Virus record (IMG/VR): IMGVR_UViG_3300034375_005797
Span: 1-23,029 of that record
Length of the DNA: 23,029 bases
Direction: 5' to 3' (one strand)
From: a virus
Part shown: positions 3,509 to 19,609 of the stretch, piece by piece
Position numbering within the stretch: position 1 is the stretch's first letter
How the letters are laid out: every line of letters starts with the position of its first letter
Made by a program: the position numbers and the translations under genes
The notes under the pieces: model-generated
The model's database searches: none
What the model was told of the DNA's origin: nothing
Seen by the model: only the letters and a program-made list of their open reading frames with translations

Positions 3509-4388
3509 ACAAAAATATATAGAGAATAAAGATCTAAACTTATTTGGTCTTGATCAATACTTAATGTTGACTGAAGATTTTAAATCATCTTTTGATCCTT
3601 TTGTAGTTAAAGATGTAAAGGGGTTCAATGTTATTGATGAATCTGAATCATGTGAAGTTGGTTATAAAGCAAGATCAGGTGAGTTTTTCATGCAACACTT
3701 AAAGGATATAAAAGTAAATCACGTGGTTTATGTTCAACCTAGAAGAGGTTTTGCAGGTATCTCATTAGCTTGGTTGTGTAAAAAGTATGACATGAAACTT
3801 ACTTTAGTTATGCCAGCTTCTAAAGAAGTAAGTGATCATCAAGCTTTATGTATTGAATTAGGAGCTGAAGCTAAGTTTGCTAGAATAGCAGCTATGCCAA
3901 ATGCTAATAAGATTGCAAAAGAATATGCTGAAAAAGTAAATGCTTTCTTTATACCGTTAGGATTAAATCACCCATTAGTTATTGCAGGAGGAGTAAAAGT
4001 TATCTATGATTATTTTAAAGACAAGGATAAACCTAAAACAATGTGGAGTGTGATAAGTACAGGTGTTTTACAAAGATCATTACAGATAGCTTTGCCAGAT
4101 ACAGAATTTAAAGCAGTAGCAGTTGCTAGAAATATACAACAAGGTGAATTAGGGCGCGCCGAGTTCTACAGTTATCATAAGCCCTTTAACAGTCTATCTG
4201 ATTTAATACCGGATAAATTTGATTGCGAGGATAGTTATGACTCGAAAGGCTGGCACTACATGTGTAAATATGGAAATGAAGGTGATTGGTTTTTTAGTGT
4301 AGCCGGTAACGCTAAGAAGCCATCAATAAATAAAAGTCAAATCAAATCATATAGGGATTGGAATGACTTAAAAGATTTTAAAATATGA
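3495..4388 (+). CDS. PLP-dependent enzyme, fold type II
   Basis: A 297-residue member of the tryptophan synthase beta/cysteine synthase (fold type II) superfamily. K58 in CEVGYKARSG is the likely Schiff-base lysine. YVQPRRGFAGISLAWLCKKY (79-98) matches the Asn-loop/helix region, LTLVMPAS and LELGAEA-type segments follow the small domain, and SVISTGVLQRSLQIALP (185-201) is the phosphate-binding loop region. A YDSKGW motif (248-253) resembles one I recall in phage PLP proteins. The family does beta-replacement, elimination or deamination on amino acids. Next to an aGPT-PPlase-like gene it may modify an amino acid before or after attachment to DNA; that is inference. Start is GTG 3495; no ATG exists before the conserved region without losing the N-terminus. 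Confidence 0.78.
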   Translation: MFLNKQKYIENKDLNLFGLDQYLMLTEDFKSSFDPFVVKDVKGFNVIDESESCEVGYKARSGEFFMQHLKDIKVNHVVYVQPRRGFAGISLAWLCKKYDMKLTLVMPASKEVSDHQALCIELGAEAKFARIAAMPNANKIAKEYAEKVNAFFIPLGLNHPLVIAGGVKVIYDYFKDKDKPKTMWSVISTGVLQRSLQIALPDTEFKAVAVARNIQQGELGRAEFYSYHKPFNSLSDLIPDKFDCEDSYDSKGWHYMCKYGNEGDWFFSVAGNAKKPSINKSQIKSYRDWNDLKDFKI

Positions 4389-5026
4389 TTTACAATAACG
4401 TGACTGAAGCTTTTGAATCTTTATATAATAAGATTGATAAAGTAGAGGAAGGTCCAAATAAAACCAAAGCAATTTATAATACTTGTTTTACGATTAAAGA
4501 CACTAAAGATCTTGTGGTCAAAACACCTTGGAGAAACTTTAAAACAAGCTATGCTGAAAAGGAATGGATTTGGTATGTTTCAGGAAATAGAAATGCTGAA
4601 GAGATAGCTAAGTGTGCCAAAATCTGGTATAATCACATGGATAATAATGGTAATGTTAATTCGAATTATGGATGGCAATGGTGGAGGAATGATCAATATC
4701 GTTATGTAGTAGAAGAATTAAAATATAATAGGTTTTCGAGACGTGCTGTTATTACAATATATGACGGTAAAGAATGGGAGGACTACGAGAAAGATACACC
4801 TTGCACTCTAGCAATACAGTTTTATTTTAAGACTGACCCTAATGTTTTACATATGTCTGTTATTATGAGAAGCAACGATTTATGGTTTGGTTTTTGTAAT
4901 GATGCCTATTGTTTTATGAAATTGCATGAATCAATGTGCGAAGATTTAAATGCAATTCAAGGAGAATACACACATTTCGCGCAAAACTTACATTTATACC
5001 CAAGACATTATGGAAAAAACATTTGA
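4385..5026 (+). CDS. Thymidylate synthase / pyrimidine hydroxymethylase homologue
   Basis: A 213-residue thymidylate synthase-superfamily protein. Landmarks: NYGWQW (94-99), SRRAVI (118-123), the catalytic cysteine in DTPCTLAIQF (C140), the phosphate-binding arginine in MRSNDLWFG (R162) and the nucleotide-contacting H203 and Y205 in NLHLYPRHY. In ungapped register with E. coli ThyA (R166 to N177) the residue at the Asn177 position is D173, although N172 is adjacent. Asp there is characteristic of dCMP hydroxymethylases, Asn of dUMP enzymes. The protein ends just after HYGKNI, without the C-terminal roughly 50 residues that close over the folate in ThyA (264 aa). A hydroxymethylase feeding base modification is my preferred reading. 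It starts in an ATGA overlap with the PLP gene. Confidence 0.82.
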   Translation: MIYNNVTEAFESLYNKIDKVEEGPNKTKAIYNTCFTIKDTKDLVVKTPWRNFKTSYAEKEWIWYVSGNRNAEEIAKCAKIWYNHMDNNGNVNSNYGWQWWRNDQYRYVVEELKYNRFSRRAVITIYDGKEWEDYEKDTPCTLAIQFYFKTDPNVLHMSVIMRSNDLWFGFCNDAYCFMKLHESMCEDLNAIQGEYTHFAQNLHLYPRHYGKNI

Positions 5027-6574: not shown

Positions 6575-6794
6575 ACGTATTAATTCAGGTAGGAAATCTA
6601 AAGCTGAAGAGGTTCAGTTAATAGAACGATTGAGTCCATTAGAAGATAAAGCTTTTGAAGCCTTACAAGCAGGGATAGAACAAGGAGACTTCAAGTATGT
6701 ACAATTATTTTACCATTATTACGCAGGTAAACCAAAAGAAACAAAAGATATTAACCTAGCCACTGAGCAGCCATTATTCCAATTAGATGAATGA
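6558..6794 (+). CDS. Putative terminase small subunit
   Basis: A 78-residue protein with the N-terminal signature common to short phage small terminases of this lineage: RGGKRINSGRKSKAEE at 3-18 (basic, glycine-rich), then a helix beginning LIERLSPLEDKAFEALQAGI and a GDFKYVQLFYHYYAGKPKETKD segment. Small terminase subunits recognise the packaging start site and stimulate the large subunit ATPase. It is far shorter than classical small terminases (about 140-200 aa) and contains one compact helical domain, so DNA recognition may depend on oligomerisation. The gene overlaps the large-subunit gene by 8 bases, the position that best supports the call. Confidence 0.75.
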   Translation: MSRGGKRINSGRKSKAEEVQLIERLSPLEDKAFEALQAGIEQGDFKYVQLFYHYYAGKPKETKDINLATEQPLFQLDE

Positions 6795-7956
6795 TTTTAT
6801 TGTAACAACAGCAATAAAGAAATTAAGTAAATTACATAAAAGGAATAGAGTTGTACAAGGAGGAACCTCAGCCGGTAAAACATTCGGTATAATTCCATTA
6901 CTTATAGATCACGCTATAAAGAACCCTAACAAAGAAATATCTATAGTTAGTGAGTCAATACCTCATCTTCGTAGAGGAGCTTTAAAAGACTTTTTAAAAA
7001 TAATGATGGTTACCGGTAGATATATAGATGGACAGTTTAATAAATCAATATTAAAATACCAATTTACAAATGGTAGTTACATAGAGTTCTTTTCAATAGA
7101 ATCAGCTGATAAACTTAGAGGAGCTAGAAGAAATATCCTATATGTCAATGAAGCAAACAATATACCTTTTGATGCCTATAACCAATTAGCAATAAGAACA
7201 AACGAAATAATATGGATAGACTTTAATCCAACAAGTTCTTTCTGGGCTCATACAGAGCTTCAAAACCAAGAAGACACAGATTTTATCAAGTTAACATACA
7301 AAGATAACGAGGCATTGCCTGATACAATAATAAAGGATATTGAGAAAGCTAAGGTTAAAGCTAATACATCAAGTTATTGGAAAAACTGGTGGACTGTTTA
7401 CGGATTAGGGGAAATAGGTAGTTTAGAAGGAGCATGCATACAAGATTGGAAACAAATGGCTTTACCTAATGAAGCTAGGTTATTATGTTATGGAATGGAT
7501 TTTGGTTATAGTAACGATCCAACAACATTAATAGCAATGTACAAATATAATAACTCATTTATATTCGATGAGGTAATATATAAAAAAGGAATGTTAAACT
7601 CTGAGATAAGTGGTTTATTAAAATCAAATAGCGTTCAGGAAATAATATATGCTGATTCAGCTGAACCTAAGTCTATAGCTGAGTTAAATAGTTATGGGCA
7701 TACCGTGTTACCTTGTTTAAAAGGAAGAGATAGTATTGTTTACGGGATAAACCTTATAAATCAAAACGAGATATATATAACACCATCTAGTGTACACTTG
7801 ATCAAAGAATTACAGAATTATATATGGTTAAAGACTAAAGATGGAGAAACACTTAATAAACCAATTGATGCTTATAACCATTGTATTGATGCAATGAGGT
7901 ATGCAATAACAGCACAACTAGACAATCCTCATCGAGGTTCATATCATATATATTAG
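6787..7956 (+). CDS. terL: Terminase large subunit
   Basis: A 389-residue packaging motor protein. The ATPase half has Walker A QGGTSAGKT at 24-32 and a Walker B-like strand NILYVNEAN at 116-124, where NE replaces the classical DE, as in PBSX-type large terminases; SIVSES (52-57) and DFNPTS (145-150) complete the motor motifs. The nuclease half (RNase H-like) has three acidic residues: D238 in GMDFGYSNDP, D290 in YADSAEP and D368 in HCIDAMRYA. The subunit translocates DNA into the prohead at the portal and cuts the concatemer. Length is typical for this compact type. The gene is followed by the only long non-coding stretch in the window. Confidence 0.95.
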   Translation: MNDFIVTTAIKKLSKLHKRNRVVQGGTSAGKTFGIIPLLIDHAIKNPNKEISIVSESIPHLRRGALKDFLKIMMVTGRYIDGQFNKSILKYQFTNGSYIEFFSIESADKLRGARRNILYVNEANNIPFDAYNQLAIRTNEIIWIDFNPTSSFWAHTELQNQEDTDFIKLTYKDNEALPDTIIKDIEKAKVKANTSSYWKNWWTVYGLGEIGSLEGACIQDWKQMALPNEARLLCYGMDFGYSNDPTTLIAMYKYNNSFIFDEVIYKKGMLNSEISGLLKSNSVQEIIYADSAEPKSIAELNSYGHTVLPCLKGRDSIVYGINLINQNEIYITPSSVHLIKELQNYIWLKTKDGETLNKPIDAYNHCIDAMRYAITAQLDNPHRGSYHIY

Positions 7957-7979
7957 AATTTTAACATAATTTTAACATT

Positions 7980-8024
7980 TCTTTAACACTTTAAACCGAA
8001 GTTAGTTTGTATATTAGCTATGTA
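7980..8024 (+). promoter_or_regulatory. Possible Bacteroidetes-type promoter before the RNA-like region
   Basis: TATATTAG at 8010-8017 is one base away from the Bacteroidetes -7 element TAnnTTTG and is preceded by A/T-rich sequence with repeated TTTAACA/TTAACA elements (7964-7988). No clear TTTG -33 box sits at the expected spacing. If used, transcription would begin around 8023-8030, shortly before the structured region. The location fits a start site for a separate RNA or the 8442-8905 genes; the sequence match alone is weak. Confidence 0.3.
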
Positions 8025-8061
8025 CTTATGTACAAATGTTCATTAAAATACTGAAAATAAA

Positions 8062-8411
8062 AAGAGGGATAGTAATCTACAGGACTATTTAAACGGCACA
8101 CCTAGGCCACTGCGTAAAATGAAAGTGTACCCTCTTAAAATATATCGAGGAAAATTGTTTTAGCATAAATGCTAATGAGAAGCGATGGACTTGAAGAGCT
8201 AAGGAAATATAAAAGGTCTGGGACTAATCACCCAGTTAACTTAAGGTTAATAGTCAAAAGGATACGATAATTATATTGATCTAGGGAAGCAAGAGAAGGA
8301 CAAAGGTTAGTACAAACACTATTAAAGACTCTGACAAAGTAACTAGCAACTGGTAGAGCTGGAAGGTTAAAAAATACATACCGGATTTGAAACCTAAGGG
8401 AGCGCCTAACT
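8062..8411 (+). ncRNA. Candidate structured non-coding RNA next to terL
   Basis: Bases 7957-8441 contain no credible coding frame. Within them 8062-8411 is visibly richer in G and C than the flanks and contains stems found by hand. Domain 1: AAGAGGG 8062-8068 pairs with CCCTCTT 8130-8136 and encloses ATAGT/ACTAT (8069-8073/8084-8088). Domain 2: TATCG 8143-8147 pairs with CGATA 8265-8269 and encloses TTAGCA/TGCTAA (8160-8165/8170-8175), CTGGG/CCCAG (8218-8222/8231-8235) and TTAAC/GTTAA (8236-8240/8246-8250). Domain 3: GTTAG 8306-8310 pairs with CTAAC 8406-8410 and encloses CTAGC/GCTGG (8343-8347/8358-8362) and AGGTT/AACCT (8364-8368/8391-8395). I do not recognise tmRNA, RNase P, 6S, or intron cores. 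Possible relatives are large phage RNAs such as GOLLD or ROOL, or a packaging RNA; none is shown. The strand follows neighbouring genes. Confidence 0.55.
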
Positions 8412-8441
8412 CGATAACAGTATTTATTTAAACGTTATAAT

Positions 8442-8597
8442 ATGTATACAAAAGAAAAAGAAAAATTACATAACGCTTTAGTTGACGTTGATCTATTAAA
8501 AACTAAATGTATCAACTTAAAACTTAAATTAGAAGCAGAGAAAGAATTAAATAGTAGATTAATTAAATTGTTAAATAATGAGAAAGTTATACGATAA
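8442..8597 (+). CDS. Small helical hypothetical protein (51 aa)
   Basis: ATG 8442 to TAA 8597 encodes 51 residues that are almost entirely charged and leucine-rich: KEKEKLHNALVDVDLLKTK followed by a Lys/Glu/Leu stretch. Heptad-like spacing of Leu, Ile and Val suggests a short coiled coil. It is the first open frame after the RNA-like region and overlaps the next small gene by 20 bases. No family is recognised. The three small genes here share a strong terminator at 8933-8965, supporting a short transcription unit. An opposite-strand frame of similar length lies over it but has A/T-driven composition and no context. Confidence 0.6.
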   Translation: MYTKEKEKLHNALVDVDLLKTKCINLKLKLEAEKELNSRLIKLLNNEKVIR

Positions 8598-8703
8598 ATT
8601 ATTATATTATACATCAATAAGTTTATTTACTTTGATCTTATTAGCCGGAAGTTTATTACTTTTAAACTTGGAAAATTTGATCAATATAATACTTGGATTA
8701 TAG
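8578..8703 (+). CDS. Small membrane protein (41 aa)
   Basis: ATG 8578 to TAG 8703 encodes 41 residues: a short polar start with positive charge (MRKLYDKLL), then a hydrophobic segment from about residue 10 to 30 (YYTSISLFTLILLAGSLLLL), then LENLINIILGL. The layout fits a single-pass membrane protein with the N-terminus inside. Size and position would suit a holin- or spanin-like accessory, but no endolysin or other lysis gene is adjacent and I do not assign that role. It overlaps the preceding and following frames by 20 and 11 bases, so translation may be coupled. Confidence 0.55.
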   Translation: MRKLYDKLLYYTSISLFTLILLAGSLLLLNLENLINIILGL

Positions 8704-8905
8704 AAAAGCAATAAGTTGGTGTTTAGAGAATGATATAAAAATTTATGTCGAACCAATAAGACAGGGTAAACGACCACCTGTGATTATTGTAGTAAATTTT
8801 AAAGGTCGAATTAAAAAAGGAAAAATTGAATATGCGCAACAGAATAATTTAGTTTGGGATAAAATTAACGATATTTATAATGCTTATTTTGATTTTTATA
8901 ATTAA
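8693..8905 (+). CDS. Conserved-looking phage hypothetical protein (70 aa)
   Basis: A 70-residue protein with alternating strands and one helix: WCLENDIKIYVEPIRQGKRPP, VIIVVNFKGRIKKGK, then NLVWDKINDIYNAYFDFY. Similar small proteins occur near terminase genes in flavobacterial phages as far as I recall, with no known function. Start is TTG 8693: a stop codon lies at 8687-8689 in this frame and no ATG occurs before the conserved-looking segment. The start overlaps the stop of the small membrane gene, which fits re-initiation. The gene is followed by 27 bases and a strong terminator. Confidence 0.68.
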   Translation: MDYRKAISWCLENDIKIYVEPIRQGKRPPVIIVVNFKGRIKKGKIEYAQQNNLVWDKINDIYNAYFDFYN

Positions 8906-8930
8906 TTGAGTTAGTTTAGTTTTAGTTAGG

Positions 8931-8966
8931 AAAAGGTGTCTATTATACATAGATGCCTTTTTTTTG
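8931..8966 (+). terminator. Intrinsic terminator
   Basis: An 11-pair stem (8933-8943 with 8949-8959, two G-T pairs) around a 5-base loop is followed by a run of eight T. It ends the small-gene unit downstream of the RNA-like region and lies just before the tail-chaperone gene at 8984, so the structural genes need their own promoter or readthrough. Confidence 0.88.
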
Positions 8967-16194: not shown

Positions 16195-16791
16195 ATGAAC
16201 ATAATAGAACTAGTAATCAACGAGGACGAGGAACTAAGTGGTGTGGATGCGATCAGTGTAGTAGAACAGCCTGCGATAGAGGAGGACTTTGTTGCATTGA
16301 AAAACCAGCAACAGGAAATCAAACTTGCGCAAGTATCTGCGGAGAAAAGAATCCTGATGGGAGCTGCACTTGTTCCAGAGAAACCCATATATAGAAGTAA
16401 CGGTCAAGAGGAATTTTATATTTATTTTTCTAAAGATACAGTTGCAAAAGCATCTCAAATGTTTTTAAGAAAAGGTAATCAAAATAAAGCTACTTTAGAA
16501 CACGCTGAAGCAATCGGTGGTATGACTGTAGTAGAATCTTGGTTAGTTGAAGATGATGTACATGATAAATCAAGAAAATATGGTTTAAATGTACCTGTAG
16601 GAACATGGATGGTATCAATGAAAGTTTATAACGATGAAGTATGGAATGACTATGTAAAAACTGGAAAAGTAAAAGGTTTCTCAATCGAAGGTTACTTTGC
16701 TGATAAATTACAACGTCCACAAGACAAACAAAAAGACCAATTAAGTGAAGATGAAAAACTTATAAAAAAATTAATAGATGCCTTACAATAA
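16195..16791 (+). CDS. Prohead protease, XkdF-like
   Basis: A 198-residue protein matching the XkdF group of putative phage serine proteases (Peptidase_S78_2). Diagnostic blocks are ATLEHAEAIGGMTVVESW (99-116, likely catalytic H103), VGTWMVSMKVYNDEVW (135-150) and VKGFSIEGYF (159-168, likely nucleophile S163). The protease digests the scaffold and often trims capsid subunits during head maturation; the scaffold and capsid genes follow directly. Residues 1-45 are acidic, with ELSGVDAISVVEQPAIEE, a motif common at the N-terminus of this family. A minor alternative start (ATG 16188) is in another frame. A repeat element precedes the gene. The last residues overlap the start of a small cysteine-containing gene. 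Confidence 0.88.
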   Translation: MNIIELVINEDEELSGVDAISVVEQPAIEEDFVALKNQQQEIKLAQVSAEKRILMGAALVPEKPIYRSNGQEEFYIYFSKDTVAKASQMFLRKGNQNKATLEHAEAIGGMTVVESWLVEDDVHDKSRKYGLNVPVGTWMVSMKVYNDEVWNDYVKTGKVKGFSIEGYFADKLQRPQDKQKDQLSEDEKLIKKLIDALQ

Positions 16792-18625: not shown

Positions 18626-19174
18626 ATGTCTTGTGATATTTCTTTAGGTAGATTAGAACCATGTAAAGATTCCGTTGGAGGGATTAGAGCAATTTATTTT
18701 ATAAACTACACAAATGGTTTATTAGATACTGCTACTTTTGACTCAGACGAAATTATTACAGGTTTTGCTTCTGCTTTAACTTTGTACAAATATGATTTAA
18801 AAGGTGCTAATTCGTTTGATGAAACAAATGAAAACTCTAGAGAAAATGGAACTAGCTTTTTTACACAAACAGGAACAATTGTTCTTAAGAAGCAAGACCC
18901 GACTACTAGAAAGCAAATGAAACTACTTAGCTGGGGGAGACCACAAATAGTAGTTGAATTTTATAACTATGGCGCGAGCGACGAAACTAGATATGTTTTA
19001 GCAGGAATAGAAAATGGTTGTGAGGTAGCTCCTTCTACTGCTTCTGGAGCAGCAATGGGAGATTTAAACGGGTATAATATTACCTTTACTGGAACTGAAA
19101 AAGAACCAGCTTTCTTTATTGACCCTACAATTATTAACGACACAACAAATACAACTGTTGTAAGCGGCACATAA
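18626..19174 (+). CDS. Putative major tail tube protein
   Basis: A 182-residue, beta-rich protein beginning CDISLGRLEPCKDSVGGI, a motif I recall in Bacteroidetes phages. Further landmarks are LYKYDLKGANSFDETNENSREN (51-72), FFTQTGTIVLKKQDPTTRKQMK and GYNITFTGTEKEPAFFID near the end. Tail tube proteins have two packed sheets and one long hairpin, and the sequence fits that size and pattern. It lies directly after the capsid gene, between two stem-loops, which suggests high expression. It is not next to the other tail genes, so the assignment is inference; a head-decoration protein is the main alternative. The two cysteines at positions 3 and 13 are unusual for this window. Confidence 0.55.
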   Translation: MSCDISLGRLEPCKDSVGGIRAIYFINYTNGLLDTATFDSDEIITGFASALTLYKYDLKGANSFDETNENSRENGTSFFTQTGTIVLKKQDPTTRKQMKLLSWGRPQIVVEFYNYGASDETRYVLAGIENGCEVAPSTASGAAMGDLNGYNITFTGTEKEPAFFIDPTIINDTTNTTVVSGT

Positions 19175-19273: not shown

Positions 19274-19609
19274 ATGATAATATTAACAACTAGTAGTTCA
19301 GCGCAGGAAATTAAATTTATTCCTAGAGAATATACAGCTACTAGTGTTGTTATACATAACGAAGATACTAACACAAGCACAACATATTCAGGACTAACAT
19401 TTACAACTGAAGCATATTATTTAAAAACAGATGTTACATTTAATCCGGTGCTAAAGGAAGGTACTTTTTACAATATTAGTGTTCTTAATGGTACAGATGT
19501 TATTTATAAAGATAATATATTTTGCACAGATCAAACTGTTTCAACTTATAGTATAAATAACAATGAGTATACTGAGCACGAAACTACAAACGAATACATT
19601 GTATTATGA
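19274..19609 (+). CDS. Small beta-rich structural-region protein
   Basis: A 111-residue protein composed mostly of strands, rich in Thr, Ser, Asn and Tyr: VVIHNEDTNTSTTYSGLTF and LKEGTFYNISVLNGTDVIYKDNIF are typical of an Ig-like or fibronectin-like sandwich. It has no signal peptide or membrane segment. Similar small proteins occur before portal genes in flavobacterial phages, as far as I recall, without known role. It overlaps the portal ATG in an ATGA, so the two are probably translated together. A decoration or neck role is possible, but no motif is diagnostic. Confidence 0.6.
   Translation: MIILTTSSSAQEIKFIPREYTATSVVIHNEDTNTSTTYSGLTFTTEAYYLKTDVTFNPVLKEGTFYNISVLNGTDVIYKDNIFCTDQTVSTYSINNNEYTEHETTNEYIVL

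Follow-up and report, generated by a model that had tools for sequence, protein, structure and literature searches.

To our knowledge, only a few large structured RNAs of phages are known. Two of them, GOLLD and ROOL, form RNA cages, and loop contacts predicted by covariation proved to be intermolecular (PMC12286853). In GOLLD the 3′ region is constant, and the 5′ region is less conserved (PMC12286853). In L. salivarius, an RNA of the ROOL kind reaches an extremely high abundance, and deleting it revealed no clear function (PMC5643018). For structured RNAs linked to terL, no paper was found in the open-access literature. The earlier note on the locus described here had read it as a long structured RNA that follows the layout of GOLLD and ROOL and matches neither, and this main reading is now supported by homology and covariation.

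The locus lies in a virus record of 23,029 nucleotides (IMGVR_UViG_3300034375_005797), which was analyzed at its full length and is called the window. Positions 7957–8441 are indeed, as had been claimed, the sole gap of more than 300 bases without a gene in this 23 kb record. The gap spans 485 bases from terL (6787–7956) to a 51-codon ORF at 8442, and no ORF of at least 40 aa was found inside it on either strand. The RNA was correctly placed within this gap, but the RNA proper begins near 8021 and not at 7957. The proposed enrichment in GC holds in direction (35.1% for 8021–8425 versus 31.1% for the window) but is modest, because 12% of the stretches of equal length match or exceed it. In single-sequence folding the window copy was no more stable than shuffled sequences (z = −0.32), and because this gave no signal, we dropped stability as an argument. 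The window sequence alone makes a weak case; it is the comparison with homologues that points to a conserved structured RNA. Elsewhere in the window, 4385–5026 is a thymidylate synthase of phage type, and 16195–16791 encodes a head-maturation-protease-like protein whose matches include a PHROG labelled DNA methyltransferase as well, a family that is perhaps mislabelled.

A search of IMG/VR with terL gave 80 loci, and a related gene-free region follows terL in nine loci (L001–L009) whose terL is at least 87% identical. Four more loci, L084, L090, L082 and L097, came from scanning for patterns of conserved blocks. After removal of near-duplicates (L001 duplicates the window, and L003 duplicates L002), twelve homologues were retained, namely the window copy and 11 IMG/VR phage loci. 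In each of the twelve there are a promoter and a 5′ hairpin, together with hairpins, nested helices and a loop-loop pairing. When 72 loci were scanned with a covariance model of the 3′ core, exactly these twelve matched, with 91–121 bits, a result that shows absence elsewhere rather than independent presence, because the model was built from an alignment holding all twelve. The RNA occurs once per record in nine virus records. Three further loci (L093–L095) were rejected as homologues, since they matched a module pattern by chance. Among named phages there was no homologue, and only the promoter block was matched, in the Tenacibaculum phages pT24 and Larrie; Flavobacterium phage FpV9, which has the nearest named terL, carries no RNA after terL, and the model matched it only at E ≥ 0.14. 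Plasmids, searched with one query of the A-type, yielded no homologue. Neither did 64 + 395 Bacteroidota genomes, in a search that had no existing positive control; distant members could escape both this search and that of the named phages. The carriers are a small group of Bacteroidetes-type phages.

For the 3′ core, aligned unguided with MAFFT (A1), RNAalifold gave 18 consensus pairs, half of which (9/18) show compensatory double changes; another unguided alignment, covering the central part, gave 20 pairs, nine of them with such changes. For the 3′ core together with the loop-loop helix, 97.1% of the cells were paired, compared with 88.1% in shuffles, and none of 500 shuffles reached the observed pairing, the number of double-changed pairs or the covariation score, in tests that ignore relatedness and include only 12 related sequences. 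After the partners were slid by 1–3 columns, at most 43% remained paired, against 97% before. In A1 the window row is shifted by one column at P10 and at the loop helix; placed in register by eye, it reads GGUA/UACC where the relatives read CGUA/UACG or CGCA/UGCG. A table of ten helices, which describes rather than tests because the helices were picked by eye, gave a pairing of 0.94–1.00 within sequences versus 0.45–0.87 across variants. Lack of covariation and lack of conservation, the two sequence outcomes that the earlier note had named as evidence against an RNA, were both looked for, and what was found instead was 12 homologues with double changes. This strong comparative evidence makes it very nearly certain, in our judgment, that 8021–8425 encodes a conserved structured RNA.

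The features of the window copy are given in Table 1. Of the three closing stems proposed earlier, P2 is real and has compensatory variants in three unrelated sequence versions (UCGAG/CUCGA, UCUAG/CUAGA and AUAAG/CUUAU), and PA, the helix of module A (8062–8068/8130–8136), pairs perfectly in the window. P1, the outermost stem, is likewise perfect in the window but, by eye, has a C-A mismatch in L002, L004, L006 and L084, and we left it as weak and uncertain because several relatives are mismatched. The proposal of at least six inner hairpins agrees with the homologue comparison, which supports P3, P4, P5, P6, P8 and P9/P10.

Table 1. Positions in the window of the RNA, its helices and the neighboring elements.
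Feature	Positions	Strand	Remarks
Promoter block	7957..8017	+	TTTAACA repeats; −7-like TATATTAG at 8010–8017
Short form of the structured RNA, about 405 nt	8021..8425	+	12 homologues, covariation
P0, 5′ hairpin UGUAC-UUAU-GUACA	8021..8034	+	homologue variants UGUAC/GUACA, UGUAA/UUACA, UGUAG/CUACA
P1, 5′ strand AAAUACUG	8046..8053	+	pairs with 8418–8425
P1, 3′ strand CAGUAUUU	8418..8425	+	pairs with 8046–8053
Module A	8062..8136	+	closed by AAGAGGG/CCCUCUU
P2, 5′ strand UAUCGAG	8143..8149	+	with 8410–8416 closes main domain
P2, 3′ strand CUCGAUA	8410..8416	+	compensatory variants
P3 hairpin, before UGAGAAGC	8160..8175	+	8 stem variants; pairing 0.94 within variants, 0.45 between them
P4 hairpin CUGGG/CCCAG	8218..8235	+	6 stem variants; also RNAalifold
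P5 hairpin UUAAC/GUUAA, before UAGUCAAA	8236..8250	+	7 stem variants, 7/7 paired
P6 helix UUAGU/ACUAU, before UUAAAGA	8307..8322	+	5 stem variants; also RNAalifold
P7, CUCU (8329–8332) with GGAG (8399–8402)	8329..8402	+	closes 3′ core; both-side changes in 3/3 pairs counted
P8 hairpin CUAGC/GCUGG	8343..8362	+	relatives CCGGC/GCUGG, CCAGC/GCUGG, GUGGC/GCUAC
P9/P10 stacked hairpin AGGUU/AACCU, AAAU/AUUU	8364..8395	+	P10: both-side changes in 4/5 pairs
Loop-loop pairing GGUA (8352–8355) with UACC (8379–8382)	8352..8382	+	relatives CGCAU/AUGCG, CGUAU/AUACG
Three small genes, outside RNA family	8442..8905	+	3′ of RNA
Terminator	8928..8964	+	after small genes; first one 3′ of RNA here

The relatives have in common the 5′ start, the P2 domain and the 3′ core, with alternative modules in between. 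Module A is present in the window, L002, L005, L007, L008 and L084 and is absent or replaced in L004, L006, L009, L090, L082 and L097; L004 and L006 have another module. The B-type middle occurs in L006, L090, L082 and L097; the last two also carry an extra 5′ module, and the 3′ modules C and D are present in some relatives. L006 is a natural chimera, which has its 5′ module in common with L004, its B-type middle with L090 and its 3′ module C with L002. The RNA appears to be built from exchangeable parts, its middle and 3′ modules having been swapped, inserted or lost between relatives. A unit TGTTC[AT]TTAAAATA, present two to three times in L082 and L097, flanks the extra 5′ module upstream of the core and is possibly a trace of module duplication or insertion. 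Hairpin loops like TTCGAAT occur in the B module (L097, L082, L090 and L006) and in the C module (L002, L004, L005, L006, L007 and L084), and these hairpins resemble the T arm of tRNA. The idea of a group I intron or a tRNA-like element, raised by these loops, was rejected, as neither Rfam nor, in the loci scanned, ARAGORN supported it.

The first 101 bases of the region are 92–93% identical in L004–L006, L008 and others. The promoter-like element reported ahead of the RNA could be substantiated: it includes a Bacteroidetes-style −7 element, TATATTAG, which we take to function as a promoter from the Bacteroidetes consensus TAnnTTTG, and a similar block lies upstream of each homologue and again upstream of further genes in these phages. 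P0 is probably the 5′ end of the transcript. The TTTAACA-repeat block (window 7957–7991) is also seen before other genes in L002–L009 and, in reverse orientation, directly after terL in many relatives. At the other end, the RNA is followed by terminators in L090 and L002 and by T runs in L004, L006–L009, L082 and L097; in most relatives a terminator and then another promoter block come after the RNA. The window copy has neither a terminator of its own nor a second promoter block ahead of the small genes, and the first run of six or more T lies 612 bases after the core motif; the strong terminator described behind the small operon is present. Among the small genes, 8693–8905 is conserved in terL relatives both with and without the RNA. 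It is a 70-aa gene of an unannotated family, without a PHROG, kept in most terL relatives.

The RNA adjoins terL in 10 of the 12 homologues. In the terL clade it sits between terL and small genes that are also present in RNA-less terL relatives, and it likewise follows terL in L090, whose terL is 63% identical. In L082 and L097 it lies just upstream of the portal gene, between homologues of the window genes 18626–19174 and 19274–19609, with the gene after the capsid-like gene on one side and a small pre-portal gene on the other. The RNA is absent from terL relatives at 71–81% identity. These arrangements make it an accessory locus at two different intergenic sites that does not belong to the terminase gene, and this speaks against the packaging RNA that the earlier note had suggested from the example of phi29 and its pRNA. 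The two are alike in that a phage RNA lies near a packaging gene in most cases. Whereas the phi29 pRNA is needed with its own packaging ATPase, the RNA described here is missing from close terL relatives, is located away from terL in L082 and L097 and has no match in the all-Rfam scans; moreover, the window terL falls in ordinary large-terminase PHROGs. We consider a packaging role in the terminase motor extremely improbable.

A cis-regulatory leader, that is, a 5′ untranslated region controlling the small-gene operon, would agree with the window, in which no terminator separates the RNA from these genes. Most relatives speak against it, since in them a terminator comes after the RNA and then a new promoter block, and so does the variable next gene, which is of the 51-aa type, the 60-aa type (L008), the 8984-type (L090) or the pre-portal type (L097). 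In addition, RNA-less terL relatives keep the same small gene. Such a leader is therefore improbable. We judge it quite improbable, too, that the region is a mobile RNA element of the ribozyme or transposon type with no role for the phage. Two insertion sites, the exchange of modules and the repeated TGTTC[AT]TTAAAATA units in L082 and L097 would be expected of such an element. Nevertheless, each of the nine relatives whose terL identity exceeds 85% carries the RNA next to terL, which suggests retention, the RNA has its own promoter and terminator, no Rfam intron or ribozyme was matched, and no transposase or nuclease was seen in the flanks examined.

We regard it as probable that the region encodes a structured, non-coding RNA that forms a family of its own and acts as a free RNA object like GOLLD and ROOL, and the sequence comparisons are best read as pointing to an accessory phage RNA of a new, GOLLD/ROOL-like family. 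The nested helices and the loop-loop contact are kept through compensatory change, and modules at the 5′ side, in the middle and at the 3′ side are exchanged around a constant 3′ core. The RNA would be transcribed from its own promoter and, ended in most relatives by its own terminator, would accumulate as free RNA; by analogy, it is likely to act in this form. Because the terminator is missing in the window, the RNA of this phage probably doubles as the 5′ part of the small-gene transcript. It may work as a folded object, probably through RNA-RNA assembly or as a scaffold for variable modules, along the lines of GOLLD and ROOL, and we hypothesize from this likeness that it assembles with itself. 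A more specific and rather doubtful proposal is that the P8/P10 loop-loop contact drives RNA-only self-assembly, with the modules as variable cargo or targeting parts; marine-type Bacteroidetes phages would then hold an independent and unrelated instance of the GOLLD/ROOL principle.

The search of all Rfam models that the earlier note had suggested matched no family, GOLLD and ROOL included: for the window and its homologues, gathering and permissive thresholds gave only sub-threshold chance matches. In a targeted search for GOLLD (RF02032), the best hit had 11.7 bits, against a cut-off of 150, and lay on the other strand elsewhere in the L090 record. Nine records searched specifically for ROOL (RF03087) yielded nothing at E ≤ 10, and the ROOL negative is carried by the all-Rfam scans because no control genome matched in the targeted search. 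ARAGORN found no tRNA or tmRNA in the window or in the eight loci scanned (L082, L084, L090 and L097 were not among them). The RNA thus differs from both families in lacking a covariance-model match, and, while many GOLLD and ROOL loci are near tRNA genes, there is none nearby here and no tRNA island as with ROOL; in this window it is also shorter than GOLLD. It resembles GOLLD as a large phage RNA with a constant 3′ and a variable 5′ region and a covarying loop-loop pairing, and ROOL as a large phage-borne non-coding RNA of roughly the same length with covarying loop contacts (PMC12286853). The layout of a constant 3′ and a less conserved 5′ region recurs here, though 3′ modules beyond the core vary too, and we treat it as analogy, not homology. 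At about 405 nt, the RNA is small here and suits structural work. A family that is unrelated to GOLLD and ROOL but shares their layout, and whose modules are visibly swapped in nature, offers an independent comparison, in which any features in common (location, loop contacts and variable inserts) would point to the shared function.
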